A DNA stretch of 64,000 nucleotides from Deroplatys truncata (taxonomy: Eukaryota; Arthropoda; Insecta; Mantodea; Mantidae). Positions 8,801-63,815 of the stretch are shown one piece after another (position 1 is the stretch's first letter; every line of letters starts with the position of its first letter). The notes below the pieces were generated by a model. The model was not told the DNA's origin, ran no database searches, and saw only the letters and a program-made list of their open reading frames with translations. The stretch is taken from assembly GCA_030765065.1 (NCBI GenBank), contig CM060978.1, positions 58,122,421-58,186,420 of the forward strand, read 5' to 3'. Both the position numbers and the translations under genes were made by a program.

Positions 8801-9143
8801 CAGCAATAGATTTAATTATTTCGCAGTATGCCAGTTTCCCCCTCCGCTGTGTAACCTATACCTATATACCAAACTTGGTAAGCTTGAAAGTTTAAAATTG
8901 TTGTACTTGTCCGCCCTTCTTTTCTTCCTATCGGTAGAGTTTGTTACCAACCAATTAACATGTTTCCGCATGTTGTAACTAAGCATGTCTTTCTTAATTC
9001 TTTTACTCTATTTATTTTACGCCACTTTACTACGCGGTTATATCGCCACGGAGCTGTTAGGAGATACCTCGTGGCTCGGTGTGTGGCGGATAGTTAGCAT
9101 TCTAGGTCTCATCCCTGTACCATACCATTTTTCTTCGTCTCGT
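8801..9143. other. Unassigned DNA before the minisatellite
   Basis: No motif identified. The 149-residue frame that starts at 8985 runs into the minisatellite and is not supported as a gene. Confidence 0.4.
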
Positions 9144-10589: not shown

Positions 10590-11660
10590 AAACACACATG
10601 CATTAGACGGTATGTCAATGAGGAGATTTAAGAAAATCTGGAAGATCAGAGTGTGACATCCGTATATCGGACTCAGAGGAGAAAAATGAGAATTGGTGCC
10701 CACTCGTACCCTGTTCCTTACCTTTGATCGGGTAGATCTCCATCAAAGACTAAGGTGGGAGGTATGTAGCCAGTTAGGCTATATATCGCGAACCCGCTGA
10801 AGTGCTATAGTTGTAAGCGCTTTGGACACACTAGTGACTTCTTTAATGGTGAACAAACCTGGAACTATGGAGACGGTCTCTCACGATGGAGCGTGTACTT
10901 CAACGTGCGTTAACTGCAGTGGAGAACTTCCATCGATATCCCCTCGTTTTACAGAGGAAAGAGCGATTTAGGATATCCGGATTAGGGAGAAGGTGTCTTT
11001 CTCGGAAGCCCGGAAACTCCTGTGTATCCGCCAACCCTCTGTACCTATAGCTCGGTGCAGCTAAACCTGTACCTTCTCATGGCAACTCAGACCAGCAATC
11101 TACCCGGGGCTACAACTTCTGATAAGATTATTGTAGCCAGATCTCTTCCAAAACTCTCGACATCACCACCTGCATCAACATCTGCCCAATCGTTACTGCC
11201 AAGATTTCTCCAGTAAGATCACTCTGTTAACATTCGATCTCCATAAATAAGCCTGGCAAGCCCGTAATGAGCAATGCTTTCTCGGCAAAATTCAAGACCT
11301 GCTATACTAGATGAGACTTCCTGAAGGAAACTCTAAAATCTGTGTCCGGGACGTCCACAAGCAGGACAGGTCCACTGTCATCTCCCCAGAGGTCCTCTTC
11401 TGAGGCATCTACTGGGAAAGCACAGATCGGTGATCTGTTCGAGGATCTCGACCCAAAATTTTGAGGCATCTACTGGGAAAACACAGATCGGCGATCTGGT
11501 TCGAGGATCTCGACCCAAAATTTTGAGGCATCTACTGGGAAAACACAGATCGGCGATCTGGTTCGATCTGGTTCGAGGATCTCGAACCAAAATTTTCTAT
11601 TGGAAAGGGATTCTACCCCTGGAGGAGATGGAGCTTAGGATTCTGCCCCCACTGCCAGAC
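10590..11660 (+). pseudogene. Non-LTR retrotransposon (jockey-like) ORF1 remnant
   Basis: Broken gag-like frame. The clearest landmark is a zinc knuckle at 10803-10845, C-Y-S-C-K-R-F-G-H-T-S-D-F, of the CX2CX4HX4C type but with the last cysteine replaced by phenylalanine. Upstream text is consistent with the P-x-R-C-type lead-in of LINE gag proteins, though frames shift. In active elements this nucleic-acid-binding protein packages the RNA. The C-terminal part carries a tandem repeat (11401-11597). Endonuclease traces of the second frame follow at 11765. Confidence 0.55.
11401..11597 (+). repeat. Three tandem 61-62 bp units in the LINE remnant
   Basis: Units starting TGAGGCATCTACTGGGAAA at 11401, 11462 and 11524 are almost identical; the third has an extra GGTTCGATCT-type duplication. 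Because the period is not a multiple of three, the expansion shifts the frame. This suggests it arose after the element died. Confidence 0.9.
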
Positions 11661-12335: not shown

Positions 12336-12381
12336 ATTTAGTATTTATTGCAGATTTTCGCAAAAAAGGAGATTTTACATA

Positions 12382-13632
12382 CACTATGTGATCAAAAGTA
12401 TCCGCATACCCCCACAAACATACGTTTTTCATCTTAGGTGCATTGTGCTGCCACCTACTGCCTGGTGCTCATCCGCGACCTCAGTAGTCATTAGACATCG
12501 TGAAACAGCAGAATGGGACGCTCCGTGGAACTGATGGACTTCAAACGCGGTCAGATGATTGTGTGTCACTTGTGTCAGAAGTCTGTATGCGAGATTTCCA
12601 CACTCCTAAACATCGCTATGTCCACTGTTTCTGATGTGATAGTGAAGTGGAAACGTGAAGGGACATGTACAGCACAAAAGCGCACAGACCGACCTCATAT
12701 GTTCACTGACAGAGACCGCCGACATTTGAAGAGGGTCTTAAAGAGTAATAGGCAGACATCTATCCAGACCATCACACAGGAATTCCAAGCTGCATCAGGA
12801 TTTACTCCAAGTAGTATGACAGTTAGGCGTGTGGTGAGAAACCTTGTATTCCATGGTCGAGAGACTGCTGATAAGCCACACATCACGCAGGAAAATGCCA
12901 AACGACACTTCGCTTGGTGTAAGGACCATCAACATTACACGATTAAACAATGGTAAAACGTTGTGTGGAGTGACGAATTATGGCACACAATGTGGCGACC
13001 CGATGGCAGGGTGTGGGTATGGCGAATGCCCGGTGAACGTCATCTGCCAGCGTGTTTAGAGCCAACAGTGAAATTCGGAGGTGATGGTGGTGTTATGGTT
13101 TGGTCGTGTTTTTCCTGGAGGGGGCTTGCACCCCTTATTATTGTTTTGCGTGGCAAGATCACAGCGCAGACCTACATTGATATTTTAAGCACCTTCTTGC
13201 TTCCCACTGCTGAAGAGCAATTCGGGGATGGCGATTGCATCCTTTAACACGATCGAACACCTGTTCATACTGCACGGGCTGTGGCGGAGTGCTTACACGA
13301 CAATAACATCCTTGTAATGGACTGGCCTGCACAGAGTCCTGACTTGAATCCTATGGAACACCTTTGGGATGTTTTGGAACGCCGACTGCGTGCCAGGCCT
13401 CACCGACCTACATCGATACCTCTCCTCACATCCGCACTCCGTGAAGAATGGGCTGTCATTCTCCAAGATACCTTCCAGCACCTGATTGAAAGTATGCCTG
13501 CAAGAGCGAACGCTCTCATCAAGGCTAAGGGTGGGCCAACACCATATTGAATTCCAGCATTACCGATGGAGTGCGCCATTAACTTGTACGTAATTTTCAG
13601 CCAGGTGTCCGGATACTTTTGATCATGTAGTG
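12382..13632 (+). mobile_element. Tc1-like DNA transposon, copy 1
   Basis: The ends are inverted repeats, CACTATGTGATCAAAAGTAT at 12382 and the reverse of ATACTTTTGATCATGTAGTG ending at 13632. They are flanked by TA at 12380-12381 and 13633-13634. The element is 1251 bp and contains one transposase frame (12513-13550). A related copy lies on the minus strand at 50259-51479 with ends differing by a few bases. Confidence 0.9.
12513..13550 (+). pseudogene. Tc1-like transposase, broken by two in-frame stops
   Basis: A 345-codon frame of normal Tc1 length, with no frameshift. The N-terminal two-part helix-turn-helix spans about residues 5-110 (F-K-R-G-Q-M-I-V, then TDRDRRHLKR and TSIQTITQEF). The DDE domain shows D in V-V-W-S-D-E (about 12975), D in H-D-R-T-P-V-H (about 13250), and E in D-L-N-P-M-E-H-L-W-D (about 13355). 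There are 34 residues between the second D and E, the DD34E signature. TAA stops at 12954-12956 and 13245-13247 each look like a single base change: AAA (inferred) and CAA (copy 2 still has Q there). The enzyme would cut and paste DNA at TA sites; this copy cannot make it without readthrough. Confidence 0.9.
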
Positions 13633-22984: not shown

Positions 22985-23153
22985 TGAATTAATGCGCTTG
23001 CCAGAATCCATTAGTGACTACAGATTACAAAAGTAACAGGTAAAAATTACTAGTTATTCAGTAACGGTTACAAAAGCAACTGTGACAGAAAATAACTGTT
23101 ACAATACTGTTATAAAGGTAACAGACAGAAAGTGACTGGTTATTGAGGCAGTA

Positions 23154-24073
23154 CCTTTACTACTTAAATAATTTCAGTCAAATTATATAATAAGTAAATT
23201 CAATTGCCTTGAAGCAATGTGTATGTAATAATTAGTAAAATGAATGTAACAGTCATTGTATATGTTTGTATTATTGTATCCATGTGTAATAACGTTATGT
23301 GAATATATTACGTAATTTAATAATGTAGGAGCTGTGAGAATAATAAGTTACACGTTGCTAACAATAAGGTAACAATGAGGTAACCTTGAGGCAATGATGA
23401 GTTTGAGAGTTTAAATGTTATTTGTGATTCTTGGAAGCATTAAGTTTATTTTAGTGACAGTTTATAAAAATAATCAATCAACAACCAGAAAAAAAGCTTT
23501 ATTAAATGCAGGTATTCTATTGGAGTAAAAATAGCCAATCAGAGACTTGAAATACAGAAATTTACAAGTTTATACGGTTGAAATCTAGTCAGTTGCCTGC
23601 GGACAGTGTTTGTAACCGGATGCAAGATGCGTCCTCGATAGATTTAATATGTATTCGTGAGAGACGAAAAATAGTTTTACTTGGTAAAAAGTATAATTAA
23701 TTAATAAAAAAGAATCTCACAGATCTCTATATCAGTGAAGTGCTATTTAATTTGCGTCAAGGATGAATAAAAAGCAGTGAATTAAAACTTAAAATCTGCG
23801 TAAGCCTACATTCTTGTCGCATCACGCCCTGCAAAGACTTCCATGTCTCTAACAATAATACTGACGCAGCCAAGGCAAACATAAATATATAATATCTACA
23901 GAAACAGTCAAATTACAAACTATTATTTTTAAACTTGGGGCAAAGGCCACCTGAAAGTACATTTGGGGCGAAGGCTACCGGAAACTGTTTACTATACGTG
24001 CGGTTGCAACTACTATAAGTTCGGTTCCCCAACAGTTGAGCTACAAAACAACTCCAACAAAACACCTTCTTCA
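23154..24073 (+). mobile_element. Family B LTR, plus orientation, copy 1
   Basis: 920 bp from TGAGGCAGTACC to ...CTTCTTCA (TG...CA ends). TTTCAGTC, ATGTAGGAGCTGTGAGAATA and CATAAATATATAATAT blocks match the other copies. It is directly followed by a primer-site-like motif. No gag or pol follows. Confidence 0.75.
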
Positions 24074-24075
24074 AA

Positions 24076-24096
24076 TTGACGCCCAAACCGTGGTGC
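24076..24096 (+). promoter_or_regulatory. Primer-binding-site-like motif after LTR copy 1
   Basis: TTGACGCCCAAACCGTGGTG lies two bases after the LTR end. It resembles the tRNA-complementary TGGCGCCCAACGTGGGGC type used by many LTR elements, with changes. Confidence 0.6.
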
Positions 24097-24827
24097 AAAT
24101 AACGAAACAAATCTATGACAGAAAGTAGCTAATTATAAAATAACCGTTACGGGAGATAGGGTTACATAAAGTAATTAGTTGTACAACAAGGTTTACAAAA
24201 GCAACGGGAAAGAAAGAGATGGGTTGCTTCATAACTGTTAGACAAATAAACAGGGAGGACGAATTATTAGGTAAATACTCAGCAACGATTACAAAAGTAA
24301 TCTTTATTATCTAACAGTTACAAAAGCAACGGAGAACAGAAAGTGATTACTTATTCAACGATTACAATAATAACGTGAACAGAAGGTAACGAGTTACTCA
24401 TTAAAGATTGCAACAATAATGGGATTGAAAGCAACGAGTTATCCAGTAACGATTACAAAAGTAAATAGTAACGAGTTGCTGAGTAATGGTTACAAAAATA
24501 ACGATTACAAAAGGGAACCAGTTACACAACAAAAGTTAGAAAAGTAACTGCGACAGAAAATAACTAGTTACAAAACAGTAGTTATAAAGGTAACCGGGAC
24601 AGAAAGTGACAGTTACAAAGTAACGGTGACAGAAAGCACCTAAGTATAAAGTAACCGTTACTAGAGCTATGGTGACAGAAAGCAACTAGTGGTACAACAC
24701 GGTTGCAAAGGTAACGGCAAAGAAAGTGACGATTTGCTTCATAATGTTAGACAAATAATAGGGAGGACGAATTATTAGGTAAAAACTCAGTAACGATTAC
24801 AAAAGTAACCTTTATTTAGTAACAATT

Positions 24828-25755
24828 TGAGGCAGTATTTTTAACACTTAAATTATTTCAGTCTAATTATATGATATAAATTCAATAACAGCCCGCCTTG
24901 AAGCAATATGTGTATGTAATAATTTGTAAAATGTATTTAACAGTCAATGCATATGCTTGTATTATTGTATCCATATGTAATAATGTTATGTGAACATGTT
25001 ACGTAATTTAATTATGTAGGAGCTGTGAGAATAATAGGTTAAAAGTTGCTAACAATGAGGTAACCTTGAGGCAATAATGAGTTTCAGAGTTTAGTAATGT
25101 TACTTGGGATTCTTGGACGCAATAATGTAATAAATGTGGCAGTTTATAAAATAGCAAATCAACAACCAGAAAAAGCTTTAGTTAAATGAAGGTATTCTAT
25201 TGGATTAGGAATAACCAATCAGAGACTTGAAAAACAGAAATTTACAAGTTTAAGCGGTTGAAATCAATTCAGTTGCCTGCAGACAGTGTTTGTAACCGGA
25301 TGCGAGATGCGTCCTCGAGAGATTTAATACGTATTCGTGAGACAAAAAATAAGTTTACGTGTTAAAAAATACAAGTAATTAATAAAATAATCTCACAGCT
25401 CTATATCGGTGAAGTGTTATTTAAATCGTGTCAAGCATTAGTAAAAAGGAGTGAAGTAAAATTATAATCTGTGTTAGCCTACATTCTTAAGTCGCACCAT
25501 CTCCCTGCTAAGACTTTCATGTCTCTAAAAATAAATACTGACGCAGTCAAGGCAAACATAAATATATAATATTTAAAGAAACACTTAAATTACAAACTTA
25601 ATATTTTTTTAAACTTGGGGCAAAGGTCACCGGAAAGTACATTTGGGGCGAAGGCTACCGGAAACTGTTTACTATACGTGCGGTTACAACGAATTTCAAG
25701 TTCGGTTCCCTAACAGTTGAAATATAATACAACTCCTTTAATATGACCTACTTCA
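24828..25755 (+). mobile_element. Family B LTR, plus orientation, copy 2
   Basis: 928 bp, TGAGGCAGTATTTTTAACAC to ...GACCTACTTCA. It is clearly homologous to copy 1 but differs by many substitutions and small indels, so the pair is not a recent 5'/3' LTR pair. Distance from start to start is 1674 bp. Confidence 0.8.
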
Positions 25756-25757
25756 AA

Positions 25758-25777
25758 TTGGCGCCCAAACGTGGGGC
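25758..25777 (+). promoter_or_regulatory. Primer-binding site
   Basis: TTGGCGCCCAAACGTGGGGC, two bases after the LTR end. This is the best-preserved primer site in the window and identifies family B as LTR ends. Confidence 0.75.
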
Positions 25778-31354: not shown

Positions 31355-31426
31355 CCTAAAAATTTGATGTTCTACATTCATATGAGTTTCTCTACCCTCT
31401 ATCGCTCATTAGTGTGTACACAATTT
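31355..31426 (-). repeat. Family A distal-end fragment
   Basis: AATTTGATGTTCTACATTCA through TTTCTCTACCCTCTATCGCT. It lies head to head with the next copy, whose own proximal end begins immediately after it. Confidence 0.7.
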
Positions 31427-32131
31427 TTACTTTCTCTACTACGTATAGTAAGTAGTGGAAGTAATGTATTCCACCCAAAAATTCGATACCGAGATTTCAC
31501 CGGAAATACAATCCAAAAATCCAAAAAAAAACATTTTTGGAAACATGTCCGTGTGTGTGTCTGTGTGTCTGTGAACAGCATAACTCAAAAACGAACAGTC
31601 GGATAAACACCAAACTTGGTATTTAGTTTCAGTATCTTCCAGAGATGCAACACGAAGGTTTTCAAGCAAATCTCCCCACTCCAGACTACCCTTTACATGG
31701 AACATCTATCCAAAATTTTAATTTTCTAAAAAATGGCTCTAACGATTTTGATAAAATATCATATGTTTGAGATATTTTCATGACAAATAAAATGTATATC
31801 TCGAATTTTCTAGGAATGTCTCTAAAATTATTCTTCATTGTGAACGACTTTTGCATAACTGCTAAACCATAACAGAGAGACAAAATTTTACTACCAAAAA
31901 ATGTAGATCGGGTTAAAATACACGATTATGTCATGTACATTTTGTTTTGTTGAGTGAACCACTTTCGAGATATTGCTTGTTATTCCCTTAGCTTTTTCAA
32001 TAATTGTACTTTTTCTCAAATACGTTATTCATTTTTTTATATCCTGGACATGCAAAGAGAATGGAATGCGCCACATAGCAGCCAGCACTTAAAATATTTG
32101 ACTATAGCTTAAAACCTACCATATTCACCTT
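31427..32131 (+). repeat. Family A repeat, left part, split by the giant palindrome
   Basis: Begins TTACTTTCTCTACTACGTAT and is ordered and well conserved up to ...CATATTCACCTT at 32131, where the palindrome starts. The remaining distal part resumes at 45843. Intact relatives read straight through CCCCTTGCATCTACAAGAAA at this point, which fixes the insertion site. Confidence 0.85.
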
Positions 32132-32141
32132 AGTAGTATTA

Positions 32142-32290
32142 GTCCCGGATGAGCCAATTGTTTTAACGATAATCCTGCCGCTAGGGGCGCTGGTGTCGCT
32201 AGTGTCGGTGCGTGCGACGGCGGCGGCGGTAAGTTTGAAAAGCGCCCTGAGCGGTAGGATTATCGTTATTGCAATTGGTTCATCCGGGAC
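32142..32290. repeat. 149 bp mini inverted repeat at left tip
   Basis: GTCCCGGATGAGCCAATTG at 32142 is mirrored by CAATTGGTTCATCCGGGAC ending at 32290. The match continues inward through AACGATAATCCT(G/A)CCGCT and meets across a GC-rich loop (GACGGCGGCGGCGG). It looks like a MITE forming the tip of the arm. The identical structure sits at 45684-45832. Confidence 0.9.
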
Positions 32291-32439
32291 GAGTTGAAAG
32301 AATTGAGGATTAGGGTAAGGTGAAGGAAGAAGAGGAAGTGACGTGGAGTGTTTTGATTGGTTCGTTAATTTGGGTGGAAGATGAAGGAAGGAAGATGGAG
32401 GAGTATGGAGGTTGCGTGATGGAGAGGAGCTGGGTGGCG

Positions 32440-32690
32440 AGGTGTTGTCTGTGCGGAGGTCGGGACTGAAAGAGGGAAAATATGGGGGAGCGAGGGATAA
32501 AAAGTGTAACAGAAAGTGACGTGTGAAGTTGTGATTGGTGGGAATAAGAAGTGATGTTATTGGTGGAAAGGAGCAAATGAAGGTTGTTGATTGGTAAGAA
32601 TAAGAGAGGTTATGATTGGTGGAAAGAAAAAGGAGTGGGGTATGTTGGAGGTGATGGGAAAGGTAAGTTTTGCTAGCAACAGGATTTGCA
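32440..32690. promoter_or_regulatory. Outer CCAAT-box promoter block, left arm
   Basis: Four ATTGG (CCAAT on the minus strand) motifs lie between about 32530 and 32620. Outward (minus strand), TTTTTATCCC then TCAGTCCC near 32470 would be a TATA-like/initiator pair about 30 bp apart. Inward (plus strand), AAAGGTAAGTTT at 32659-32670 is a splice-donor-like site. Direction is undecided. Confidence 0.4.
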
Positions 32691-32858
32691 AAAGCCTGTC
32701 GTGAACTGATCAGCAATTTTTTTTGAACGTTGGATGGTAGTTTTCTTGAGTGGATAGAGAGATGTGGCGATATGAGATGCGGTGGCGAAAATGGGAACTA
32801 AACAAGGTGGTTGAGACAAGAGGTTTAAGGACGAGGAAATTTGGAGGTTAGTGGTGAA

Positions 32859-33032
32859 CATGGCGGTCGCAAGAGGTGTGGGTAAGGAGTTGCGGTGGTG
32901 AGAATGGGAACTAAAAGAAGATGGCGGTAGCAAGAGGTTAGAAGAGTAGATTTTGAGGTTAAAATAGTGGGAACTAAAAATGGCGGAGGGTCTGCGACAA
33001 GGAGATGCGGTGGGAACTAAACAAGATGGCGG
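32859..33032 (+). promoter_or_regulatory. Cluster of four ATGGCGG (YY1-like) motifs
   Basis: ATGGCGG occurs at about 32860, 32921, 32980 and 33025, three of them in the longer form ATGGCGGT(C/A)GCAAGAGG. AAGATGGCGG is the core recognised by the zinc-finger factor YY1 (Pho in flies). The clustering is repeated in each 1065 bp unit of the right arm. Confidence 0.45.
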
Positions 33033-33136
33033 TCGCAAGAGGAGGGTAAGGAGATTTGAGGTTACAGTACCAAAACACGAAAGGATATATTCCTACGCCA
33101 AGCAGGTCCGAAAAATAATTATGCGTGTGGTACTTA

Positions 33137-33700
33137 CCTGTTACCGGTGTGGATGCGTCACCAAAAGCGCGGCACGCGAGGCGGAAAAATAAAAGCAAAC
33201 TGTTTTTGAAAATGCTTAACCAGCTTTAAGATCAACCAACATCACTACGCACTGATATACCTAGGTTTTTAAAGCGGTACAGACACCCTTTGCAGAGGCG
33301 TAATTTAACTATACCAAAACCTGGTACTGGACCATCGTGATGGTCGCTAGCGTACGTAGGAGCAGGGTTCTCATAGCCGGTCGAAGCGGTCAAAAACGTG
33401 TACGACGTAGGTGTTCACAGTAGCTGCTGTCGAGTCAACCGTCGAGGTGTGAATAAACGAGATGTGTTCTCGCCGGCAATCTGGTTCGGAGATGTGAGCA
33501 GCGGCGAGGTGTTGTCTGTGCGGAGGTCGGAACTGAAAGAGGGAAAAGATGGGGAGCGAGGGATAAAAAGTGTAACAGAAAGTGACGTGTGAAGTTGTGA
33601 TTGGTGGGAATAAGAAGTGATTTTATTGGTGGAAAGGAGCAAATGAAAGTTGTTGATTGGTAAGAATAAGAGAGATTATGATTGGTGGAAACAAAAAGGT
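33137..33700 (-). promoter_or_regulatory. Inner promoter/first-exon-like block, left arm
   Basis: Mirror of 43210-43771. Minus strand, in order: four CCAAT boxes (33590-33690), TTTTTATCCC, initiator-like TCAGTTCC (about 33527), a roughly 395 bp noncoding stretch, then ACAGGTAAGTACC (donor-like, 33131-33141). Confidence 0.4.
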
Positions 33701-33984
33701 GTGGGAGTGGGGTATGTTGGAGGTGATGGGAAAGGTAAGTTTTGCTACCGACAAGATTTGCAAAAGCCTCTCCAGAACTCATCAGCAATTTCAGCAGACG
33801 ATGTGCGTGGCGATAGGCCCGCTGCGATGAAAGAGCTGCAAACTGCGCGATAATTTGAAAAATATTGGCCGCCGTGACGCATTGCGCGCGCGCGCGTTTA
33901 CCGTAAACCGTTACAGTTGCCATACTTATATTACCCGGCTTTCTTTTTTTCTTTTCTTTTTTTCTTTTTCTTTTTTTTACGTTT

Positions 33985-34910
33985 GTTTTTTAAAAAAAAA
34001 TAACTAGTTTTTCGGGGGTTTTCTCTGGTTGGTAGACGAATGCAAGCTCTTTCTGCTTTTTCACAGGTTTTCCCTGGTTGGTAGGCGTTTGCTGTAGTGG
34101 TTGACGAAGCCCTTTCTAATTTTCGAGGTTTTTTCAGGTTTTTCGTGGTTGTCCCTGCCCGGTAGGCAAATGATGAAGTTTTTCCTTGTCAGCGCACGGA
34201 TACTAGGCACATACTCGCACACACACACACACACACACACACGTTGCAGTTGCCATACTTATATTATTCGTCTTTTCCTTTTTTTCTTTTTGTTTTTTCG
34301 TTTTTTTAAAAAATAACTAGTTTTTGGAGGTTTTCTGCGGTTGGTAAACGAATGCAAGCTCTTTCTGCTTTTTCATAGGTTTTCCCTGGTTGGTAGGCGT
34401 TTTCTGTACTGGTTGACGAAGGCGTTTCTAATTTTCAGGTTTTCTCAGGTTTTTTAGCGGTTGTCCCTGCCCGGTAGGCAAATGATGAAGTTTTACCTTG
34501 TCGGCGCACGGATACTAGGCACGTACTCGCGCGCACACACACACACACAAACGTTGCAGTTGCCATACTTATATTATTCGACTTTTCCTTTTTTTTTTAA
34601 AATAACTAGTTTTTTTGGGAGTTTTCTGCGGTTGGTAAACGAATGCAAACTCTTTCTGCTTTTTCATAGGTTTTCCCTGGTTGGTAGGCGTTTTCTGTAG
34701 TGGGTGACGAAGCCGTTTCTAATTTTCGAGGTTTTCTCAGGTTTTTTAGCGGGTGTCCCTGTCCGGTAGGCAGATGATAAAGTTTTTCTATAATGTCGTC
34801 GTTTCGGCTTGTGGCGCACGGATACTAGGCACGTACTCGCGCACACACACACACACAGACAGACAGTCACACAGACAGGCACACACACACGGACATGTTT
34901 CCAAAAATGC
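33985..34910. repeat. Tandem SINE-body/(AC)n units, left arm
   Basis: Three units of roughly 300 bp. Each contains TTTTCCCTGGTTGGTAGGCG and CCCGGTAGGCA(A/G)ATGAT, then GCGCACGGATACTAGGCAC(A/G)T and an AC dinucleotide tract. The first two phrases resemble the SINE body at 8480. Further partial units sit near 35390 and 35960. Minus-strand copies are at 40830-42950. Confidence 0.75.
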
Positions 34911-36070
34911 CTTTTTTTTTTTTTTTTTTTTTGGGATTCAGGAGGTCTCAAAACGTGTATTTCCGGTAAAATCTCGGTATCGAATTTTTGGGTGGAATGC
35001 AATACTTCCCCTACTTACTATACGTAGTAGAGAAAAGTAAAAAAAAGTGTAAGTATTGTCAAATTTAAGGAAATAACAAGCAATATCTCGAAAACGGTTC
35101 ACTCAACAAAAGAAATGTATATGGCATAAGCTGTGTATTTTAACGCGATCTACATTTTTTGTGAAGTAAAATTTTGTCTATCTCTTATGGTTTCCCAGTT
35201 ATGCAAAAGGCGTTCACAATGAAGAATACTTTTGGAGACATTCCCAGAAAATTTGAGATATACATTTTATTTCTCACGACATTAACTTAAGCATATGATA
35301 TTTTTAACAAAATCGTTATAGCCATTTTTGAGAAAATTAAAAAAAAGTGTACTATCTTGTTTTCATGGGTTTACCAGATCGGTAAGCGTTAGAATACTCT
35401 TAGAGCTTTTTTTTCAGGTTTTCGCGGTTGTCCCTGTCCGGTAGGCAAATGATAAAGTTTTTCTATAATGTCGTCGTTTCGGCTTGTGGCGCACGCATAC
35501 TAGGCACGTACTCGCGCACACACACACACACAAACACACACACACAGACACACACACACGGACATGTTTCCAAAAATGCTTTTTTTTTAGGATTCAGGAG
35601 GTCTCAAAACGTGTATTTCCAGTGAAATCTCGGTATCGAATTTTTGGGTGGAATGCAATACTTCCCCTACTTACTATACGTAGTAGAGAAAGTAAAAAGT
35701 ATAAGTATTGGAAAATTTAAGGAAATAGCAAGCAATATCTCGAAAACGGTTCACTCGACAAAAGAAATGTATATGACATAAGTTGTGGATTTTAACGCGA
35801 TCTAGATTTTTTGTGTAGTAAAATTTTGTCTATATCATGACATTATCTTAAACATATGATATTTTCATCAAAATCGACATAGCCATTTTTGAGAAAATTA
35901 AAAAAGTGTACTATCTTGTTTTCATGGGTTTTCCAGGTCGGTAAGCGTTAGAATACTCTTAGAGCTTTTTTCAGGTTTTTTCGCGTTTTACCTGGCAGGT
36001 AGGCAGATGATAAAGTTTTTCTATAATGTCATCGTTTTGGCTTGTGGCGCACGGACACTAGGCACATACT

Positions 36071-36132
<62 letters not shown>

Positions 36133-36274
36133 CTAAAATAGTAGCGTATAAAAAAATTTAACAAACCGTAGATTTTCAAGAAAATTCCCACACCGCAAAC
36201 TACCCGTTTAGCGGGAGAAAGGGCATTATTTTTATTGTTTTAAAAATGGCTCTAACCCCTTTTGATTACGGTAC

Positions 36275-37411
<1,137 letters not shown>

Positions 37412-38383
37412 CTTCCAAAGATACGACACAGAGAGTTTCAAGAAAACCCCTCCACCCCAAACTACCCTTTACATGAACTATTTTCCGAAATGTTTTATTT
37501 TCTAAAATTGTTTCTGACGATTTTAATTACAACACCATATATTAAAGACATTTATATGAAAAATAAAATGTATATCTTGAATTTTGTGGAAATAGCCTGT
37601 GAAGTCCTCTTGATTCGGAAGAAATTTTCTATGATCTTGTATAACTGCTAAGGTTTGAGAAAAACATAGAATACAAAAAATTTAGATCTTTTTAAAAACA
37701 CACACACACTTTATTTGAAATAACTTTTTTGTGACGTCAGCCATTTCCGAAATATTTGTTATAAATGGTTCGAATTGTACAATGCTTAGCCATTCTACTT
37801 CACTTCTTTCAAACTGCTTAAAAATCATATAAATGAATGTATCACCTCATAATAAGCCTCTATATACGAAAAATGCTGAGTATTCAAAAAGTCAAGAAAT
37901 TCGATTTTCTAGCCCCTAGTGAGTGAAAAATCGCGTTTACTTCGCTTCTTTCAAACTGCTTCTACCCTTTACATGAACTATTTTCCGGAATGTTTTATTT
38001 TCTAAAACTGTCTCTGACGATTTTAATTACAACACCATATATTAAAGACATTTATATGAAAATAAAATGTATATCTTGAATTTTGTGCAAATAGCCTGTG
38101 AAGTCCTCTTGATTCGGAAGAAATTTTCTATGAACTTGTATAACTGCTAAGGTTTGAGCAAACACACACAATTTATTTGAAATAACTTTTTTGTGACGTC
38201 AGCCATTTTCGAGATATGTGTTATAAATGGTTGGAATTGTACAGTGCTTAGCCATTCTTTTTTAAAAGGCATGACGCTTTTCAGTTCTTGCTCACCATGT
38301 TGATGGAAAGAATTTAGAATTTTAAGACCAGTGTATAGCGTCCCTTTGGATGTCTAACGGTTGTGCAATGCAACCATTTCCCG

Positions 38384-39184
38384 GACCGGGTTTAACGTAA
38401 TTTGAGACTCTGTAAAGCCGGAAAAAAGCTTTGGCAACCTCCTCTGCTTGTGTCCTATAATTTCGAACGTAGGCTGCAAGGTGTCATCGCGACTTCCTCC
38501 GGGTTGTTGGTCCATCTTATCGTCCGAATGCACCGATCGCTCTTTCCCTGCAAAGTACTGCGGCTATTTTGTTTTTATTTTAAAATTATTTTTCGTCAAA
38601 TAGAACGATTTTGTAGAAAAACACACTATCGCTTTCGTTTCTAACTACGGGCTTTTGCTGTTCGCACAGGGTTTTTATAAGCTCGCTTATCGCAACCGTT
38701 GTTTCATCATTTGTGTCGAGTTAAATGCCTCGTTTCGCTAAAAAATTGTCTAGTTTTAAAAACTTAGAGTCATGCTGACACCAACCGCCACTGCACAATT
38801 CTCACCGCCGACATAAAGGTTGCATTTATTGTATTGCTGACGAATTTCCGCATCTCTCACCTTTCACTGTCATCAGCACACGGCTCTTTTGCGTGTAGCG
38901 CTGAATGCGAACGAGCTGACCTCAGTTATTCCTGATGTTATTAGTGCAATATTAAAACTATGAGTATCGTGTGTAGTGTTTTATGTTGTGCCAGTGCATA
39001 CGTGTTATGTAAAATGTATGAACTAAATACAATCAGCAGATACTTCCTTTCTAAGGAGTAACACCAACTGTTGAATATAAATTCTCAAAGTGCTCCGTTC
39101 GTACGACCTCTACCCTCTATTTCTTATAGGTGAGTACGAAAGTTTATTTTCATATCCACTTAATTTTAATCCGCATAAACTTTT
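38384..39184 (+). other. Unique 801 bp spacer at the palindrome centre
   Basis: Single-copy in the window and of ordinary base composition. The 80-residue frame at 38402-38644 is unrecognised. On the plus strand TTTTTATAAGC (about 38671) is TATA-like, and ATAGGTGAGTACG (about 39127-39139) is a good splice-donor match, so a transcript directed into the right arm is conceivable. There is no evidence for a protein. Confidence 0.6.
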
Positions 39185-40425
39185 CGGGAAATGGTTGCAT
39201 TGCACAACCGTTAGACATCCAAAGGGACGCTATACACTGGTCTTAAAATTCTAAATTCTTTCCATCAACATGGTGAGCAAGAACTGAAAAGCGTCATGCC
39301 TTTTAAAAAAGAATGGCTAAGCACTGTACAATTCCAACCATTTATAACACATATCTCGAAAATGGCTGACGTCACAAAAAAGTTATTTCAAATAAATTGT
39401 GTGTGTTTGCTCAAACCTTAGCAGTTATACAAGTTCATAGAAAATTTCTTCCGAATCAAGAGGACTTCACAGGCTATTTGCACAAAATTCAAGATATACA
39501 TTTTATTTTCATATAAATGTCTTTAATATATGGTGTTGTAATTAAAATCGTCAGAGACAGTTTTAGAAAATAAAACATTCCGGAAAATAGTTCATGTAAA
39601 GGGTAGAAGCAGTTTGAAAGAAGCGAAGTAAACGCGATTTTTCACTCACTAGGGGCTAGAAAATCGAATTTCTTGACTTTTTGAATACTCAGCATTTTTC
39701 GTATATAGAGGCTTATTATGAGGTGATACATTCATTTATATGATTTTTAAGCAGTTTGAAAGAAGTGAAGTAGAATGGCTAAGCATTGTACAATTCGAAC
39801 CATTTATAACAAATATTTCGGAAATGGCTGACGTCACAAAAAAGTTATTTCAAATAAAGTGTGTGTGTGTTTTTAAAAAGATCTAAATTTTTTGTATTCT
39901 ATGTTTTTCTCAAACCTTAGCAGTTATACAAGATCATAGAAAATTTCTTCCGAATCAAGAGGACTTCACAGGCTATTTCCACAAAATTCAAGATATACAT
40001 TTTATTTTTCATATAAATGTCTTTAATATATGGTGTTGTAATTAAAATCGTCAGAAACAATTTTAGAAAATAAAACATTTCGGAAAATAGTTCATGTAAA
40101 GGGTAGTTTGGGGTGGAGGGGTTTTCTTGAAACTCTCTGTGTCGTATCTTTGGAAGGTAATAATAATAATACACATAAATTGTGTGCTTTAACGTCCTTG
40201 TACAGTAAGGCTTCGTTTCCTACGGTTTAACAGTTGTACAAAAGACATTCACAATGAGACTACTTCACAGCAATTCCCAGAAAATTGAAGTTATACATTT
40301 TATTTGTCATGCAGATATCTTAAACATACCGAAGTTAAAAGAATGACGAGTTTTAGTGAGAAAGGTCTAAAGCTTTTAAACATTAAAATCAACATGCAAA
40401 CTTTGTAAATACACAACGCCACAAA

Positions 40426-40474
<49 letters not shown>

Positions 40475-40776
40475 ACATAAATTGTGTGCTTTAACGTCCT
40501 TGTACAGTAAGGCTTCGTTTCCTACGGTTTAACAGTTGCACAAAAGACATTCACAATGAGACTACTTCACAGCAATTCCCAGAAAATTGAAGTTATACAT
40601 TTTATTTGTCATGCAGATATCTTAAACATACCGTACCGTAATCAAAAGGGGTTAGAGCCATTTTTAAAACAATAAAAATAATGCCCTTTCTCCCGCTAAA
40701 CGGGTAGTTTGCGGTGTGGGAATTTTCTTGAAAATCTACGGTTTGTTAAATTTTTTTATACGCTACTATTTTAGTG

Positions 40777-40835
<59 letters not shown>

Positions 40836-43209
40836 GAGTATGTGCCTAGTGTCCGTGCGCCACAAGCCAAAACGATGACATTATAGAAAAACTTTATCAT
40901 CTGCCTACCTGCCAGGTAAAACGCGAAAAAACCTGAAAAAAGCTCTAAGAGTATTCTAACGCTTACCGACCTGGAAAACCCATGAAAACAAGATAGTACA
41001 CTTTTTTAATTTTCTCAAAAATGGCTATGTCGATTTTGATGAAAATATCATATGTTTAAGATAATGTCATGATATAGACAAAATTTTACTACACAAAAAA
41101 TCTAGATCGCGTTAAAATCCACAACTTATGTCATATACATTTCTTTTGTCGAGTGAACCGTTTTCGAGATATTGCTTGCTATTTCCTTAAATTTTCCAAT
41201 ACTTATACTTTTTACTTTCTCTACTACGTATAGTAAGTAGGGGAAGTATTGCATTCCACCCAAAAATTCGATACCGAGATTTCACTGGAAATACACGTTT
41301 TGAGACCTCCTGAATCCTAAAAAAAAAGCATTTTTGGAAACATGTCCGTGTGTGTGTCTGTGTGTGTGTGTTTGTGTGTGTGTGTGTGCGCGAGTACGTG
41401 CCTAGTATGCGTGCGCTACAAGCCGAAACGACGACATTATAGAAAAACTTTATCATTTGCCTACCGGACAGGGACAACCGCGAAAACCTGAAAAAAAAGC
41501 TCTAAGAGTATTCTAACGCTTACCGATCTGGTAAACCCATGAAAACAAGATAGTACACTTTTTTTTAATTTTCTCAAAAATGGCTATAACGATTTTGTTA
41601 AAAATATCATATGCTTAAGTTAATGTCGTGAGAAATAAAATGTATATCTCAAATTTTCTGGGAATGTCTCCAAAAGTATTCTTCATTGTGAACGCCTTTT
41701 GCATAACTGGGAAACCATAAGAGATAGACAAAATTTTACTTCACAAAAAATGTAGATCGCGTTAAAATACACAGCTTATGCCATATACATTTCTTTTGTT
41801 GAGTGAACCGTTTTCGAGATATTGCTTGTTATTTCCTTAAATTTGACAATACTTACACTTTTTTTTACTTTTCTCTACTACGTATAGTAAGTAGGGGAAG
41901 TATTGCATTCCACCCAAAAATTCGATACCGAGATTTTACCGGAAATACACGTTTTGAGACCTCCTGAATCCCAAAAAAAAAAAAAAAAAAAAAAGGCATT
42001 TTTGGAAACATGTCCGTGTGTGTGTGCCTGTCTGTGTGACTGTCTGTCTGTGTGTGTGTGTGTGTGCGCGAGTACGTGCCTAGTATCCGTGCGCCACAAG
42101 CCGAAACGACGACATTATAGAAAAACTTTATCATCTGCCTACCGGACAGGGACACCCGCTAAAAAACCTGAGAAAACCTCGAAAATTAGAAACGGCTTCG
42201 TCACCCACTACAGAAAACGCCTACCAACCAGGGAAAACCTATGAAAAAGCAGAAAGAGTTTGCATTCGTTTACCAACCGCAGAAAACTCCCAAAAAAACT
42301 AGTTATTTTAAAAAAAAAAAGGAAAAGTCGAATAATATAAGTATGGCAACTGCAACGTTTGTGTGTGTGTGTGTGCGCGCGAGTACGTGCCTTGTATCCG
42401 TGCGCCGACAAGGTAAAACTTCATCATTTGCCTACCGGGCAGGGACAACCGCTAAAAAACCTGAGAAAACCTGAAAATTAGAAACGCCTTCGTCAACCAG
42501 TACAGAAAACGCCTACCAACCAGGGAAAACCTATGAAAAAGCAGAAAGAGCTTGCATTCGTTTACCAACCGCAGAAAACCTCCAAAAACTAGTTATTTTT
42601 TAAAAAAACGAAAAAACAAAAAGAAAAAAAGGAAAAGACGAATAATATAAGTATGGCAACTGCAACGTGTGTGTGTGTGTGTGTGTGTGTGCGAGTATGT
42701 GCCTAGTATCCGTGCGCTGACAAGCAAAAACTTCATCATTTGCCTACCGGGCAGGGACAACCACGAAAAACCTGAAAAAACCTCGAAAATTAGAAAGGGC
42801 TTCGTCAACCACTACAGCAAACGCCTACCAACCAGGGAAAACCTGTGAAAAAGCAGAAAGAGCTTGCATTCGTCTACCAACCAGAGAAAACCCCCGAAAA
42901 ACTAGTTATTTTTTTTAAAAAACAAACGTAAAAAAAAGAAAAAGAAAAAAAGAAAAGAAAAAAAAGAAAGCCGGGTAATATAAGTATGGCAACTGTAACG
43001 GTTTACGGTAAACGCGCGCGCGCGCAATGCGTCACGGCGGCCAATATTTTTCAAGTTATCGCGCAGTTTGCAGCTCTTTCATCGCAGCGGGCCTATCGCC
43101 ACGCACATCGTCTGCTGAAATTGCTGATGAGTTCTGGAGAGGCTTTTGCAAATCTTGTCGGTAGCAAAACTTACCTTTCCCATCACCTCCAACATACCCC
43201 ACTCCCACA

Positions 43210-43771
43210 CCTTTTTGTTTCCACCAATCATAATCTCTCTTATTCTTACCAATCAACAACTTTCATTTGCTCCTTTCCACCAATAAAATCACTTCTTATT
43301 CCCACCAATCACAACTTCACACGTCACTTTCTGTTACACTTTTTATCCCTCGCTCCCCATCTTTTCCCTCTTTCAGTTCCGACCTCCGCACAGACAACAC
43401 CTCGCCGCTGCTCACATCTCCGAACCAGATTGCCGGCGAGAACACATCTCGTTTATTCACACCTCGACGGTTGACTCGACAGCAGCTACTGTGAACACCT
43501 ACGTCGTACACGTTTTTGACCGCTTCGACCGGCTATGAGAACCCTGCTCCTACGTACGCTAGCGACCATCACGATGGTCCAGTACCAGGTTTTGGTATAG
43601 TTAAATTACGCCTCTGCAAAGGGTATCTGTACCGCTTTAAAAACCTAGGTATATCAGTGCGTAGTGATGTTGGTTGATCTTAAAGCTGGTTAAGCATTTT
43701 CAAAAACAGTTTGCTTTTATTTTTCCGCCTCGCGTGCCGCGCTTTTGGTGACGCATCCACACCGGTAACAG
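43210..43771 (+). promoter_or_regulatory. Promoter/first-exon-like module, right arm copy 1
   Basis: CCAAT at 43224, 43249, 43280 and 43305 (spacing 25-31 bp). TTTTTATCC follows at about 43340, then TCAGTTCC with its A at 43375, matching the arthropod initiator TCAGTY about 30 bp downstream. ACAGGTAAGTACC at 43768-43780 is a strong donor, defining a 395 bp putative noncoding first exon. CTCTTTCAG could alternatively be read as a 3' splice site. Confidence 0.45.
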
Positions 43772-44274
43772 GTAAGTACCACACGCATAATTATTTTTCG
43801 GACCTGCTTGGCGTAGGAATATATCCTTTCGTGTTTTGGTACTGTAACCTCAAATCTCCTTACCCTCCTCTTGCGACCGCCATCTTGTTTAGTTCCCACC
43901 GCATCTCCTTGTCGCAGACCCTCCGCCATTTTTAGTTCCCACTATTTTAACCTCAAAATCTACTCTTCTAACCTCTTGCTACCGCCATCTTCCTTTAGTT
44001 CCCATTCTCACCACCGCACCTCCTTACCCCCCACCTCTTGCGACCGCCATGTTCACCACTAACCTCCAAATTTCCTCGTCCTTAAACCTCTTGTCTCAAC
44101 CACCTTGTTTAGTTCCCATTTTCGCCACCGCATCTCATATCGCTCCATCTCTCTATCCACTCAAGAAAACTACCATCCAACGTTCAAAAAATTGCTGATC
44201 AGTTCACGACAGGCTTTTGCAAATCTTGTTGCTAGCAAAACTTACCTTTCCCATCACCTCCAACATACCCCACT

Positions 44275-44836
44275 CCTTTTTCTTTCCACCAATCATAACC
44301 TCTCTTATTCTTACCAATCAACAACCTTCATTTGCTCCTTTCCACCAATAACATCACTTCTTATTCCCACCAATCACAACTTCACACGTCACTTTCTGTT
44401 ACACTTTTTATCCCTCGCTCCCCATCTTTTCCCTCTTTCAGTTCCGACCTCCGCACAGACAACACCTCGCCGCTGCTCACATCTCCGAACCAGATTGCCG
44501 GCGAGAACAGATCTCGTTTATTCACACCTCGACGGTTGACTCGACAGCAGCTACTGTGAACACCTACGTCGTACACGTTTTTGACCGCTTCGACCGGCTA
44601 TGAGAACCCTGCTCCTACGTACGCTAGCGACCATCACGATGGTCCAGTACCAGGTTTTGGTATAGTTAAATTACGCCTCTGCAAAGGGTGTCTGTACCGC
44701 TTTAAAAACCTAGGTATATCAGTGCGTAGTGATGTTGGTTGATCTTAAAGCTGGTTAAGCATTTTCAAAAACAGTTTGCTTTTATTTTTCCGCCTCGCGT
44801 GCCGCGCTTTTGGTGACGCATCCACACCGGTAACAG
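44275..44836 (+). promoter_or_regulatory. Promoter/first-exon-like module, right arm copy 2
   Basis: Same order of CCAAT boxes, TTTTTATCC, TCAGTTCC and ACAGGTAAGTACC as the module at 43210, displaced by 1065 bp and nearly identical. This makes the promoter-like sequence a tandem monomer. Confidence 0.45.
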
Positions 44837-45339
44837 GTAAGTACCACACGCATAATTATTTTTCGGACCTGCTTGGCGTAGGAATATATCCTTTCGTGTT
44901 TTGGTACTGTAACCTCAAATCTCCTTACCCTCCTCTTGCGACCGCCATCTTGTTTAGTTCCCACCGCATCTCCTTGTCGCAGACCCTCCGCCATTTTTAG
45001 TTCCCACTATTTTAACCTCAAAATCTACTCTTCTAACCTCTTGCTACCGCCATCTTCTTTTAGTTCCCATTCTCACCACCGCAACTCCTTACCCACACCT
45101 CTTGCGACCGCCATGTTCACCACTAACCTCCAAATTTCCTCGTCCTTAAACCTCTTGTCTCAACCACCTTGTTTAGTTCCCATTTTCGCCACCGCATCTC
45201 ATATCGCCACATCTCTCTATCCACTCAAGAAAACTACCATCCAACGTTCAAAAAAAATTGCTGATCAGTTCACGACAGGCTTTTGCAAATCCTGTTGCTA
45301 GCAAAACTTACCTTTCCCATCACCTCCAACATACCCCAC

Positions 45340-45560
45340 TCCTTTTTCTTTCCACCAATCATAACCTCTCTTATTCTTACCAATCAACAACCTTCATTTG
45401 CTCCTTTCCACCAATAACATCACTTCTTATTCCCACCAATCACAACTTCACACGTCACTTTCTGTTACACTTTTTATCCCTCGCTCCCCCATATTTTCCC
45501 TCTTTCAGTCCCGACCTCCGCACAGACAACACCTCGCCACCCAGCTCCTCTCCATCACGC
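45340..45560 (+). promoter_or_regulatory. Outermost promoter-like block, right arm
   Basis: CCAAT cluster and TCAGTCCC initiator-like site, but the following sequence diverges after ACACCTCGCC into a C/T-rich stretch leading to the tip. A start here would transcribe outward through the tip into flanking DNA. Confidence 0.35.
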
Positions 45561-45683
45561 AACCTCCATACTCCTCCATCTTCCTTCCTTCATCTTCCAC
45601 CCAAATTAACGAACCAATCAAAACACTCCACGTCACTTCCTCTTCTTCCTTCACCTTACCCTAATCCTCAATTCTTTCAACTC

Positions 45684-45832
45684 GTCCCGGATGAACCAAT
45701 TGCAATAACGATAATCCTACCGCTCAGGGCGCTTTTCAAACTTACCGCCGCCGCCGTCGCACGCACCGACACTAGCGACACCAGCGCCCCTAGCGGCAGG
45801 ATTATCGTTAAAACAATTGGCTCATCCGGGAC
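45684..45832. repeat. 149 bp mini inverted repeat at right tip
   Basis: Mirror of 32142-32290, beginning GTCCCGGATGAACCAATTG and ending with the reverse complement of GTCCCGGATGAGCCAATTG. Confidence 0.9.
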
Positions 45833-45842
45833 TAATACTACT

Positions 45843-45990
45843 CACCTTGCATCTACAATAAAATTAGCAATAAGATTGACATCTCGATATCTCGATTAAC
45901 ATGAAGCACATGGAGAATAAGCGTTTGTAAAAATAGTTTGTACAAGTGTAGAGAAAGTCCTGTGAGTGTAACACATCAGATTTTTTTACA
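45843..45990 (+). repeat. Family A repeat, right part of the split copy
   Basis: CACCTTGCATCTACAATAAA is the second CACCTT, continuing the host repeat. It then runs through GCGTTTGTAAAAATAGTTTG and GTGTAGAGAAAGTCCTGTG. Confidence 0.85.
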
Positions 45991-50258: not shown

Positions 50259-51479
50259 CACTACGTGATCAAATGTATCCGGACAACCGGCAAGTTCGTG
50301 GCGCCCTCCATCGGTAATGCTGGAAGTCAATATGGTGTTGGCCCACCCTTAGCCTTGATTACAGCGTTCACTCTCGCAGGCATACTTTCAAACAGGTGCT
50401 GGAAGGTTTCTTGGGGAATGGCAGACCATTCCTCAAGGAGTGCGGAACTGAGGAGAGGTATCGGTGTAGGTCGGTGAGGCCTGGCACGAAATCGGCGTTC
50501 CAAAACATCCCAAAGGTGTTCTATAGGATTCAAGTCAGAGCTCTGTTCAGGCCAGTCCATTAAAGGGATGTTATTGTCTTGTAACCACTCCGCCACAGCC
50601 CGTGCAGTATGAATAGCTGCTCAATCGTGTTGAAAGATGCAATCGCCATCCCCGAATTGCTCTTCAACAGTGAGAAGCAAGAAGATGCTTAAAATATCAA
50701 CGTAGGTCTGCGCTGTGATCATACCACGCAAAACAACAAGAGGTGCAAGCCTCCTCCAGAAAAAACACGACCTTACCATAGCACCACCATCTCCGAATTT
50801 CATTGTTGGCAGTACACACGCTGGCAGATGACGTTCACCGGGCATTCGCCATACCCACATCCTGCCATTGGATCGCCATATTGTGTACCCTGATTCGTCA
50901 CTCTACACAACGTTTTGCCACTGTTCAATCGTGTAATGTTGACGCTCCTTACATCAAGCGAGGTGTTGTTTAGCATTTTCCTGCGTGATGTGTGGCTTTT
51001 GAGCAGCCGTTCGACCATGGAATCCAAGGTTTCTCACCTCACGCCTAACTGCCATAGTACTTGGAGTGGATCCTGATGCAGTTTGGAATTCCTGTATGAT
51101 GGTCTGGATAGATGTCTGTCTATTACTCTTTACGACCCTCTTCAAATGTCGGCGGTCTCTGTCAGTCAACAGACGAGGTCACCATGTACGCTTTTGTGCT
51201 GTGCATGTCCCTTCACGTTTCCACTTCAGAAAAAGTGGACCTAGGGATGTTTAGGAGTGTGGAAATCTCGCGTACAGACTTCTGACACAAGTGACACCCA
51301 ACCACCTAACCACGTTTGAAGCCCGTGAGTTCCATGGAGCGTCCCATTCTGCTGTTTCGCGATGTGTAATGACTACTGAGGTCGCGGATAATGAGTACCA
51401 GGCAGTAGGTGGCAGCACAGGCACCTAAGATGAAAAACGTATGTTTGTGGGGTGTCCGGATACTTTCGATCACATAGTG
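50259..51479 (-). mobile_element. Tc1-like DNA transposon, copy 2
   Basis: The ends CACTACGTGATCAAATGTAT (50259) and, reversed, CACTATGTGATCGAAAGTAT (51479) are flanked by TA at 50257-50258 and 51480-51481. 1221 bp, same family as 12382-13632 in the opposite orientation. Confidence 0.9.
50327..51347 (-). pseudogene. Tc1-like transposase, copy 2, stops plus an 11 bp deletion
   Basis: Minus-strand frame from MGRSMELTGFKRG (51347), where TAG replaces the next codon of copy 1. An 11 bp deletion near 51235 shifts the frame. From 51169 to 50327 one frame is kept with only nonsense changes: TGA and TAG at former tryptophans near 50952 and 50905, and TGA right after F-Q-H-D near 50620. The catalytic positions D, D and E (N-P-I-E-H-L-W-D) are all present. 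It shows what residues were at the two stops of copy 1. Confidence 0.85.
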
Positions 51480-51539
51480 TATGTCTATGCTTAAAGGCTG
51501 CTGTATTTCTATATTGCCCTTGCAAATACCAAACAAGGG

Positions 51540-52500: not shown

Positions 52501-53347
52501 AGGTGTTATTTTAGGAGGAGTTGTATTTTATTTCGAATGTTGGGGAGCCGAACTTGAAGTAGTTGCAACCACACTATGGTAAAATGTTTCCGATAGCCTT
52601 TGCCCCAAAAATGTTTAAAAATATAACGTTGCAATTTGATTGTTTCTTTAAATATTATATATTTATGTTTGCCTCGACTGCGTCAGTATTTATTTTTTTA
52701 GAGGCATGAATGTCACGATTTAAATAACACTTCACTGATATAGAGAGAGAAGTGAGATTTTCTTATTAATTACTTGCACTTTTTAACTCGTAAACTATTT
52801 TTGTCTCACACAAAATACGTATTAAATTTATCGAGGACGCATCTCGCGTCCGGTTAGGAACACAGTCTACAATCAACGCGTCCAGTTATGAGCGCTGACT
52901 ACAAGCAACTGAACTCTGAATTTGAAAATTTTCTATATTTCAGTTTCTGATTGGCTAATCCTAGTCCGATAGAATACTTTCATTTAACTAAAGATTTTTC
53001 TGGTTGTTAATTTGCTATTTTATGAACTGTCACAAAAATTACATTATTGTTGCTCCAAGAATGAGTAGTAGCATTATTAAACCTTCTAATTCATTATTGC
53101 CTCAAGGGTACCTCATTGTTAGCAACTTTTAACCTATTATTCTCACCGCTCCTACATTATTAAATTAGTAGTACATTCACATAACATTATTGAACCAGTA
53201 TACAATAATATAAACATATACAATGACTGTAATATATACTTTTTATATCTTGTTACATACACATATTGCTTTAAGGCGGGCGGTTATTGAATTTATATAT
53301 TATATAATTAAACTGAAACCATTTAAGTGTTAAAAATACTGCCTCAC
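52501..53347 (-). mobile_element. Solo family B LTR inserted in family A, 6 bp duplication
   Basis: 847 bp, minus strand GTGAGGCAGTATTTTTAACA to ...ACACCT. GCTTAA flanks both ends (52495-52500, 53348-53353), and family A is continuous when it is removed. No primer site adjoins it, as expected for a solo LTR. Pairing of the duplicate could be 5 or 6 bp. Confidence 0.8.
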
Positions 53348-62908: not shown

Positions 62909-63815
62909 TGAAGAAGGTGTATTGCAGGAGTTGCATTATATTTCAACTGTTGGGGAGTCGAACACTTGAAGTAGTTGCAACCGCACGTATGGTAGACGGT
63001 AGCCTTTGCCCCACGTTTTAAAAATATTAACTTTGTAATTTTACTGTTTCTTTAAATATTATATATTTATGTTTGCCTCGGCTGCGTCAGTATTATTGTT
63101 AGAGACACGTTTCTCTTGGCAGGGTTGTCGTGTGATTAAGAATGTAGGCTTACACAGATTATAATCTTACTTCGCTCCTTTTATTAATGCCTGATACTAT
63201 TTACATAACACTTCACTGATATAGAGAGCTGTGAGATCCTGTATCAATTAATTACACTTTTTAACACGTAAACTTATTTTTTGTCTCACACGAATACATA
63301 TTTTATTTCTTGAGGACACTTTTTGCGCCTGGTTAGGAACACTGTTTGCAGGCAACCGAACAAATTTCAACCTCCTAAACTTGTAAATTTCTGCATTTCA
63401 AGTCTCTGAATGGCTATTCCTAATCCAATAGAATACCTTCTTTTAACTAAAGCTTTTTCTGGTTATTGATTGGCTATTTTATAAACTGTCACTAAAATTA
63501 CATTATTGTTACTCCAATAATCAGAAGCAGTATTATTAAACTCTCAAACTCATTATTGCCTCAAACTTACCTCATTGTTACCTCATTGTTAGCAGCTTTT
63601 AACTTGTTATTCTCACAGCAGCTACATTATTAAATTACGTAATGCATTCATATAACATTATTGAATATGTTTACAGTAGTATAAGCATATGCAATGACTG
63701 TTACATACATTTTACAAATTATTACATACACATGTTGCTTCAAGGCGGGCTGTTATTGAATTTACATATTATAAAATTTGACTGAAATCATTTAAGTGTT
63801 AAAAATACTGCCTCA
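62909..63815 (-). mobile_element. Family B LTR, minus orientation
   Basis: 907 bp, minus strand TGAGGCAGTATTTTTAACAC (63815) to ...ACCTTCTTCA (62909), with the primer-site-like modules on its 3' side. A complete LTR without internal coding region. Confidence 0.8.

Follow-up and report, generated by a model that had tools for sequence, protein, structure and literature searches.

Results

The window analyzed here is a 64,000-nucleotide stretch of the genome of the mantis Deroplatys truncata (assembly GCA_030765065.1, contig CM060978.1, forward-strand positions 58,122,421 to 58,186,420), and it contains a palindrome of about 13.7 kb. Self-comparison of the window delimited a left arm (32132..38383, + strand, 6252 bp) and a right arm (39185..45842, - strand, 6658 bp), inverted with respect to each other around an 801-bp spacer (38384..39184, + strand), which occurs once in the palindrome and runs into a PolB gene in the coding relatives described below. 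The palindrome reads AGTAGTATTAGTCCCGG...CCGGGACTAATACTACT at its ends, with the terminal motif AGTAGT...ACTACT, and is bounded on either side by CACCTT as a perfect 6-bp target-site duplication (32126..32131 and 45843..45848). The 159-bp left tip (32132..32290, + strand) carries the AGTAGT end motif and a terminal hairpin; in the coding relatives, these 159 bp make up the entire terminal inverted repeat. The right tip (45684..45842, - strand) is an inverted copy of the left one. The hairpin at each tip is strong: positions 32132-32306 gave a folding z score of -11.2, and none of 200 shuffles folded equally well.

Chance pairing of the end motifs was ruled out: the window has 152 AGTAGT/ACTACT pairs, and identical 6-bp flanks occur at the palindrome alone; no such flanks were found among 429 AGAGAG/CTCTCT pairs. 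A miniature inverted-repeat transposable element nested at the tip was also rejected, no duplication around the hairpin being visible by eye. An Rfam scan of the window gave no matches.

The flanks of the palindrome are the two halves of a host repeat of about 0.8 kb, family A (left part 31425..32131, + strand; right part 45843..45985, + strand, end approximate). After the flanks were joined and one CACCTT was removed, five of seven further family A copies could be aligned with them across the insertion point, and these five carried CCCCTT (four copies) or CCCCGT (one copy) as the empty-site sequence; in one of the five, a deletion begins 3 bases past the insertion site. The remaining two copies had a gap at the insertion site or were too short. 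Since removal of one CACCTT restores an unbroken host repeat, the palindrome was inserted as one unit. The first-pass annotation of this DNA was thus accurate in its coordinates, arm lengths, spacer, matched tips and duplication, and its proposal of a single mobile unit in an otherwise continuous family A copy is borne out by uninterrupted paralogues showing the empty site.

The arms had been described as nearly identical, and aligned base by base they proved even closer than claimed. In a piecewise comparison, they differed by 6 substitutions in 5583 compared sites and by small indels (the left 1067-bp unit was set against the nearer of two right units, and the tandem array at 36274-36937 was excluded). 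The 406-bp difference in arm length comes from a tandem unit of about 1067 bp that is present once in the left arm (32436..33502, + strand) and twice in the right arm (43407..45538, - strand), and it is partly offset by two more units of about 302 bp and a longer run of TAT in the left arm. The left arm harbors four of these 302-bp units (36276..37410, + strand; markers at 36276, 36638, 36940, and 37239) and the right arm two (markers at 40296 and 40598). Between the two right 1067-bp units there are differences at 10 of 1064 sites, a rate about ninefold that seen between the arms. The single left unit resembles unit 1 up to position 33284 and unit 2 at 33464 (one site). Because the right units have diverged so much more than the arms and the left unit matches both, the two-unit state seems to predate the last homogenization of the arms, and the left arm probably lost one unit afterwards. 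The inner arm (34842..38261, + strand) is a mosaic with pieces related to the host family A repeats. Many such pieces, mostly of 75 to 94% identity to host repeats, are mirrored in both arms, so that copying between the arms must have taken place.

No intact gene was found in the palindrome when 22 stop-free frames were scanned, out of 58 of at least 50 amino acids in the left arm and spacer: none passed the Pfam cutoff, one gave a subthreshold match (E = 0.058), and the scan revealed no rve integrase. The spacer does, however, hold the start of a PolB gene, truncated where the inverted arm begins. Counting from the first ATG, the initial 44 codons are retained (38384..38515, - strand); they are identical to those of the coding copy to which they were compared, and the frame then enters the inverted arm. 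We refer to the join between inverted arm and spacer (38383..38384), at which about 1 nucleotide is shared, as the founder junction.

The ends and the 6-bp duplication led us to predict that the palindrome originated from a Maverick (Polinton), and the genome search then tested this prediction. For vertebrate Mavericks, the account in PMC8097293 gives 6-bp duplications, 5'-(AGT)2//(ACT)2-3' as the commonest end motif, expected to permit jumping-back in protein-primed replication, and (AG)3//(CT)3 as an alternative, with intact elements of 12.7 to 24.6 kb and inverted repeats of 46 to 1,447 bp. Duplications of 6 bp are shared by IS3EU/GingerRoot and by Dada (6 to 7 bp), and both identities were ruled out by their ends: IS3EU is described with TA..TA ends and GingerRoot mostly with TA..TA, sometimes TG..CA (PMC10045372), and Dada-U6 and -U1 are described as having no terminal inverted repeats, Dada targeting small-RNA genes (PMC3706591).

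Genome searches were performed on the 4.29-Gb home assembly, which contains the window at C4:58122421-58186420. The exact 24-base tip was found in 719 forward and 718 reverse copies, and in none in the reversed control. Among the first 100 places listed, adjacent + and - tips were mostly paired at about 10 to 24 kb, and some were unpaired. The exact tip pattern had no matches in viral_contigs and genome_contigs, and the hairpin pattern had none in viral_contigs. A 24-base query spanning the founder junction identified 35 places (16 + 19) distributed over all of C1-C16 (control, 0), and all 35 were free of mismatches although two were allowed.

Seven other palindromes were fetched on both sides. 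Both tips were within reach in five of them, and each of these five had its own perfect 6-bp duplication (ATCGCT, CACGTG, ATCGTC, CTGGCT, and GTAGTA, the last one sitting in a GTA repeat that makes its boundary ambiguous). As for the other two, one had no tip in the fetched stretches and one had tips on one side only. In copy c12 (L020:8416-9637), two tips of the same orientation lie about 1.2 kb apart, like a duplicated end or a nested second element.

The first-pass annotation had reasoned that the absence of any second copy or empty site would point to an error of assembly or a local duplication; this is countered by the 35 junction places, the paralogous empty sites and the individual duplications of all five palindromes read at both tips. 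Artefacts from fold-back reads are known, as reported in PMC12870357. However, the mirror symmetry stops exactly at the tips and leaves the flanks unmirrored, the arms differ by whole tandem units in addition to the 6 substitutions, and one junction is common to 35 places, with individual duplications in the five other copies read at both tips, so that an assembly artefact is improbable in the extreme.

Smaller relatives, which had been suggested as a further check, are present as well: three tip-flanked elements of 9.96 to 12.4 kb, picked from the tip list for their size, all had long inverted arms. In the smallest (L033, 9.96 kb), the arms are about 95% identical and reach into sequence that is unique spacer in the window palindrome, which indicates a different turn-back point. 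The second (L034/L035, 12.4 kb) has a TACGTG duplication and inverted arms that measure at least about 2.3 kb. In the third (L036), of whose 10.6 kb a stretch of 10.0 kb was read, the inverted arms are at least about 1.6 kb long; these two could be deletion derivatives of the first form. Each arm of L033 (2776-4324 and 6438-7702) also contains about 10 copies of a tandem unit of about 142 bp, a possible satellite seed.

The spacer was searched with positions 38300-39300 as the query, and 40 copies were scored out of 2565 candidates. Twenty-eight matched across the left junction of the palindrome, 11 of them (window included) over the whole query and 17 over positions 1 to 974, and 12 matched over positions 84 to 1001, that is, from the junction rightwards only. 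Three of these 12 were read on both sides. In all three, the tip, right end and spacer are present once each, followed by large frames beyond 38383, and all three carry the parental junction. They encode a family B polymerase (PF03175; E = 3.5e-44, 3.1e-44, and 3.8e-45) and an rve integrase (PF00665; E = 1.5e-14, 3.2e-15, and 3.2e-15) with a chromodomain. At the very position where the palindrome reverses, the sequence of these elements carries on into PolB. We infer that this polymerase is protein primed; PF03175 itself is a B-type model. A protein search with the polymerase frame gave one relative (34%), a 437-amino-acid frame gave 10, one of them named F54H12.2-like, in a fish, and a 253-amino-acid frame gave weak AAA matches below cutoffs.

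The coding Mavericks are about 19 to 20 kb long. Both ends were read in two of them, one of the three above and a fourth element for which reading was confined to the ends, and both had 6-bp duplications (GTCCTT and CACCTC). Their inverted repeat is only 159 bp long (95.6% and 96.9% identical). Since the spacer starts inside the PolB gene, this 159-bp repeat became the 6.3- to 6.7-kb repeat of the palindrome by duplication of the PolB-side end. In a coding Maverick, the 6.2-kb PolB-side end, spacer included (L024:1-6218), has no stop-free stretch above 150 amino acids; it is apparently noncoding, and long in that respect for such an element.

These data also bear on the nature of the palindrome as a foldback element, the term used in the first-pass annotation. 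The shape justifies it. Foldbacks such as Tetris, Galileo, Tm1, and FB have long inverted arms with tandem repeats, a unique middle and no transposase, and the shape, arm repeats and lack of genes of the palindrome would fit an old Mutator- or P-type foldback whose arms were kept alike by chromosomal gene conversion and whose Maverick-like ends were coincidental. The ancestry does not follow: those foldbacks are assigned to Mutator or P-like superfamilies and have longer duplications, and the arms given for Tetris are shorter (up to 1,735 bp). Here, every copy whose two ends were read had a duplication of 6 bp instead of 8 to 10 bp, and the coding Mavericks carry the same tips and right end, which already contradicts such an origin and makes it very improbable. 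The target-site duplications of P-type elements measure 7 to 8 bp.

Within copies, the two arms are almost the same: summed over eight copies and three arm segments, left and right arms differed at 11 of 12,886 sites (for a fourth segment, rows cover the window and coding copies only). Between copies, they are not. The window palindrome and c16 differed at 45 of 1591 sites in their left arms and at an equal number in their right arms, and c16 forms with c9 and c4b a second lineage, 2.8% apart from the first in the compared segments. One shared founder junction combined with such likeness of the arms within each copy requires repeated copying from arm to arm. This coevolution hints at replication through a self-paired intermediate, and chromosomal gene conversion would be another way to obtain it.

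The window also contains other repeats. Two inverted copies of a Tc1-like element (12377-13586 and 50291-51484) are 89% alike, and the first holds a 150-amino-acid frame matching HTH_Tnp_Tc3_2, whose nearest relative is a protein from a 573-bp contig (71%), followed by proteins of the spider Trichonephila clavipes (51 to 56%). A second dispersed repeat family, about 76 to 88% alike, occurs in both orientations (2-540, 5364-6252, 23139-24093, 24825-25774, 52711-53346, and 62997-63815). Tandem arrays lie at 9133-9635 (about seven diverged copies of an approximately 70-bp unit) and at 11401-11566 (62-bp unit, 97% matches).

Discussion

Judged by its sequence, the palindrome is a non-autonomous Maverick made of two mirror copies of the PolB-side (right) end around 801 bp that include the start of PolB. 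It shares with Mavericks the (AGT)2//(ACT)2 ends (a motif stated for vertebrates), the 6-bp duplication and a size within their range, and its coding relatives carry PolB and an rve integrase; it differs from them in its palindromic structure, its arms of 6.3 to 6.7 kb and the lack of any intact gene found. Non-autonomous Polintons as such are known (Repbase). What mobilizes the palindrome had been left without an answer in the first-pass annotation. The likely answer is now a Maverick, as the same tips bound coding elements with polymerase and integrase, and we infer with good support that Maverick proteins act on it in trans. Taken together, Maverick ancestry, a mirrored PolB-side end and movement in trans are, in our opinion, highly probable.

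How the mirror arose is less certain. In the scenario toward which we lean, protein-primed strand-displacement synthesis from the right tip would have reversed direction at about 7.4 kb and used its own strand as template all the way to the tip (snap-back), with the 801-bp loop as the remainder. Alternatively, breaks at 6.7 and 7.4 kb from the tip could have released two Maverick right ends that were joined head to head, the product then being mobilized by the integrase. This is a possible but less probable origin. A join with about 1 nucleotide of shared sequence is compatible with it, and end-joining is preferred by the authors of PMC8235507 for symmetric and asymmetric snapback genomes of adeno-associated virus (AAV). 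Against it stand the three additional tip-flanked elements with inverted right ends, a pattern that a replication-linked process would be expected to give; this argument is weakened by their having been picked for small size and by the two that could be deletion derivatives. The shared nucleotide itself favors neither snap-back nor end-joining.

Whichever way it was born, replication and integration of the palindrome by Maverick proteins would be possible because both ends keep the 159-bp tip. With this tip at both ends, the Maverick polymerase would replicate the palindrome, and the rve-chromodomain integrase would insert it and generate the 6-bp duplications. During replication, the self-complementary displaced strand would fold, and one arm would be repeatedly rewritten from the other, so that the arms would stay alike.

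Several observations weigh against parts of this scheme. The structure expected from snap-back is also the one that would result if two broken right ends were joined. In c12, 4 of 691 sites differ between the arms in one segment, and homogenization is therefore incomplete. Relative to the coding copies read, the arms are mosaic (85 to 99%), which means that recombination with coding elements also happened. Two of the three coding copies read have an interrupted PolB frame, so that a helper active today can only be presumed, and capsid, protease, and ATPase genes could not be identified with confidence in the coding copies, other scanned frames being below cutoff. Finally, the two lineages could reflect two origins at the same nucleotide instead of a single origin followed by homogenization. 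In agreement with this, identity to the coding copies across the aligned right arm is higher for lineage 2 (c16 and c4b; 96.0 to 96.9%) than for the window copy (94.1 to 94.4%). However, the junction is identical in 35 of 35 places with almost no microhomology, and repeated identical joins are not expected unless the site is a hot spot. Moreover, next to the spacer the order is reversed: the right arm of the window copy is 99.4% identical there to the coding copy pC16 (86 to 96% further out), and that of c16 only 97.7% (92 to 98% further out). We thus consider two independent origins unlikely.

A close parallel is provided by the snapback genomes of AAV, which are reported with symmetric and asymmetric loops (PMC8235507). 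In both cases, a viral end is mirrored around an asymmetric loop, a gene start and the terminal repeat are kept, and the colinear parent has that end once. Unlike the AAV forms, the palindrome is integrated in its host genome in dozens of copies and is of Maverick ancestry, and its replication would be protein primed, whereas that of AAV is by rolling hairpin. Mavericks are themselves suspected to be viruses, with particles unobserved according to PMC8097293; the 13.7 kb of the palindrome fall among the sizes published for intact vertebrate Mavericks, which is compatible with packaging but is no evidence for it. A search of titles and the beginnings of abstracts, with subscription journals mostly outside its reach, found no report of palindromic or snapback Mavericks among the matches listed.

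A broader proposal, to which we give about an even chance, is that an endogenous Maverick gave rise to these palindromes as heritable snapback defective genomes. They would be self-complementary satellites that replicate as hairpins, with arms rewritten at each cycle, and that use the polymerase and integrase of their parent; one founder would have spread to at least 35 loci, and the several hundred tip-flanked elements would include further snapback forms of independent origin.

Palindromes derived from one end and multiplied in a genome could be remnants left by a linear, protein-primed genome that replicates by strand displacement, and they may therefore constitute a fossil record of Maverick replication and of parasites of a parasite. 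The 35 copies with one founder junction allow concerted evolution of the arms to be tested, and foldback elements would gain a second route of birth beside Mutator and P transposons.

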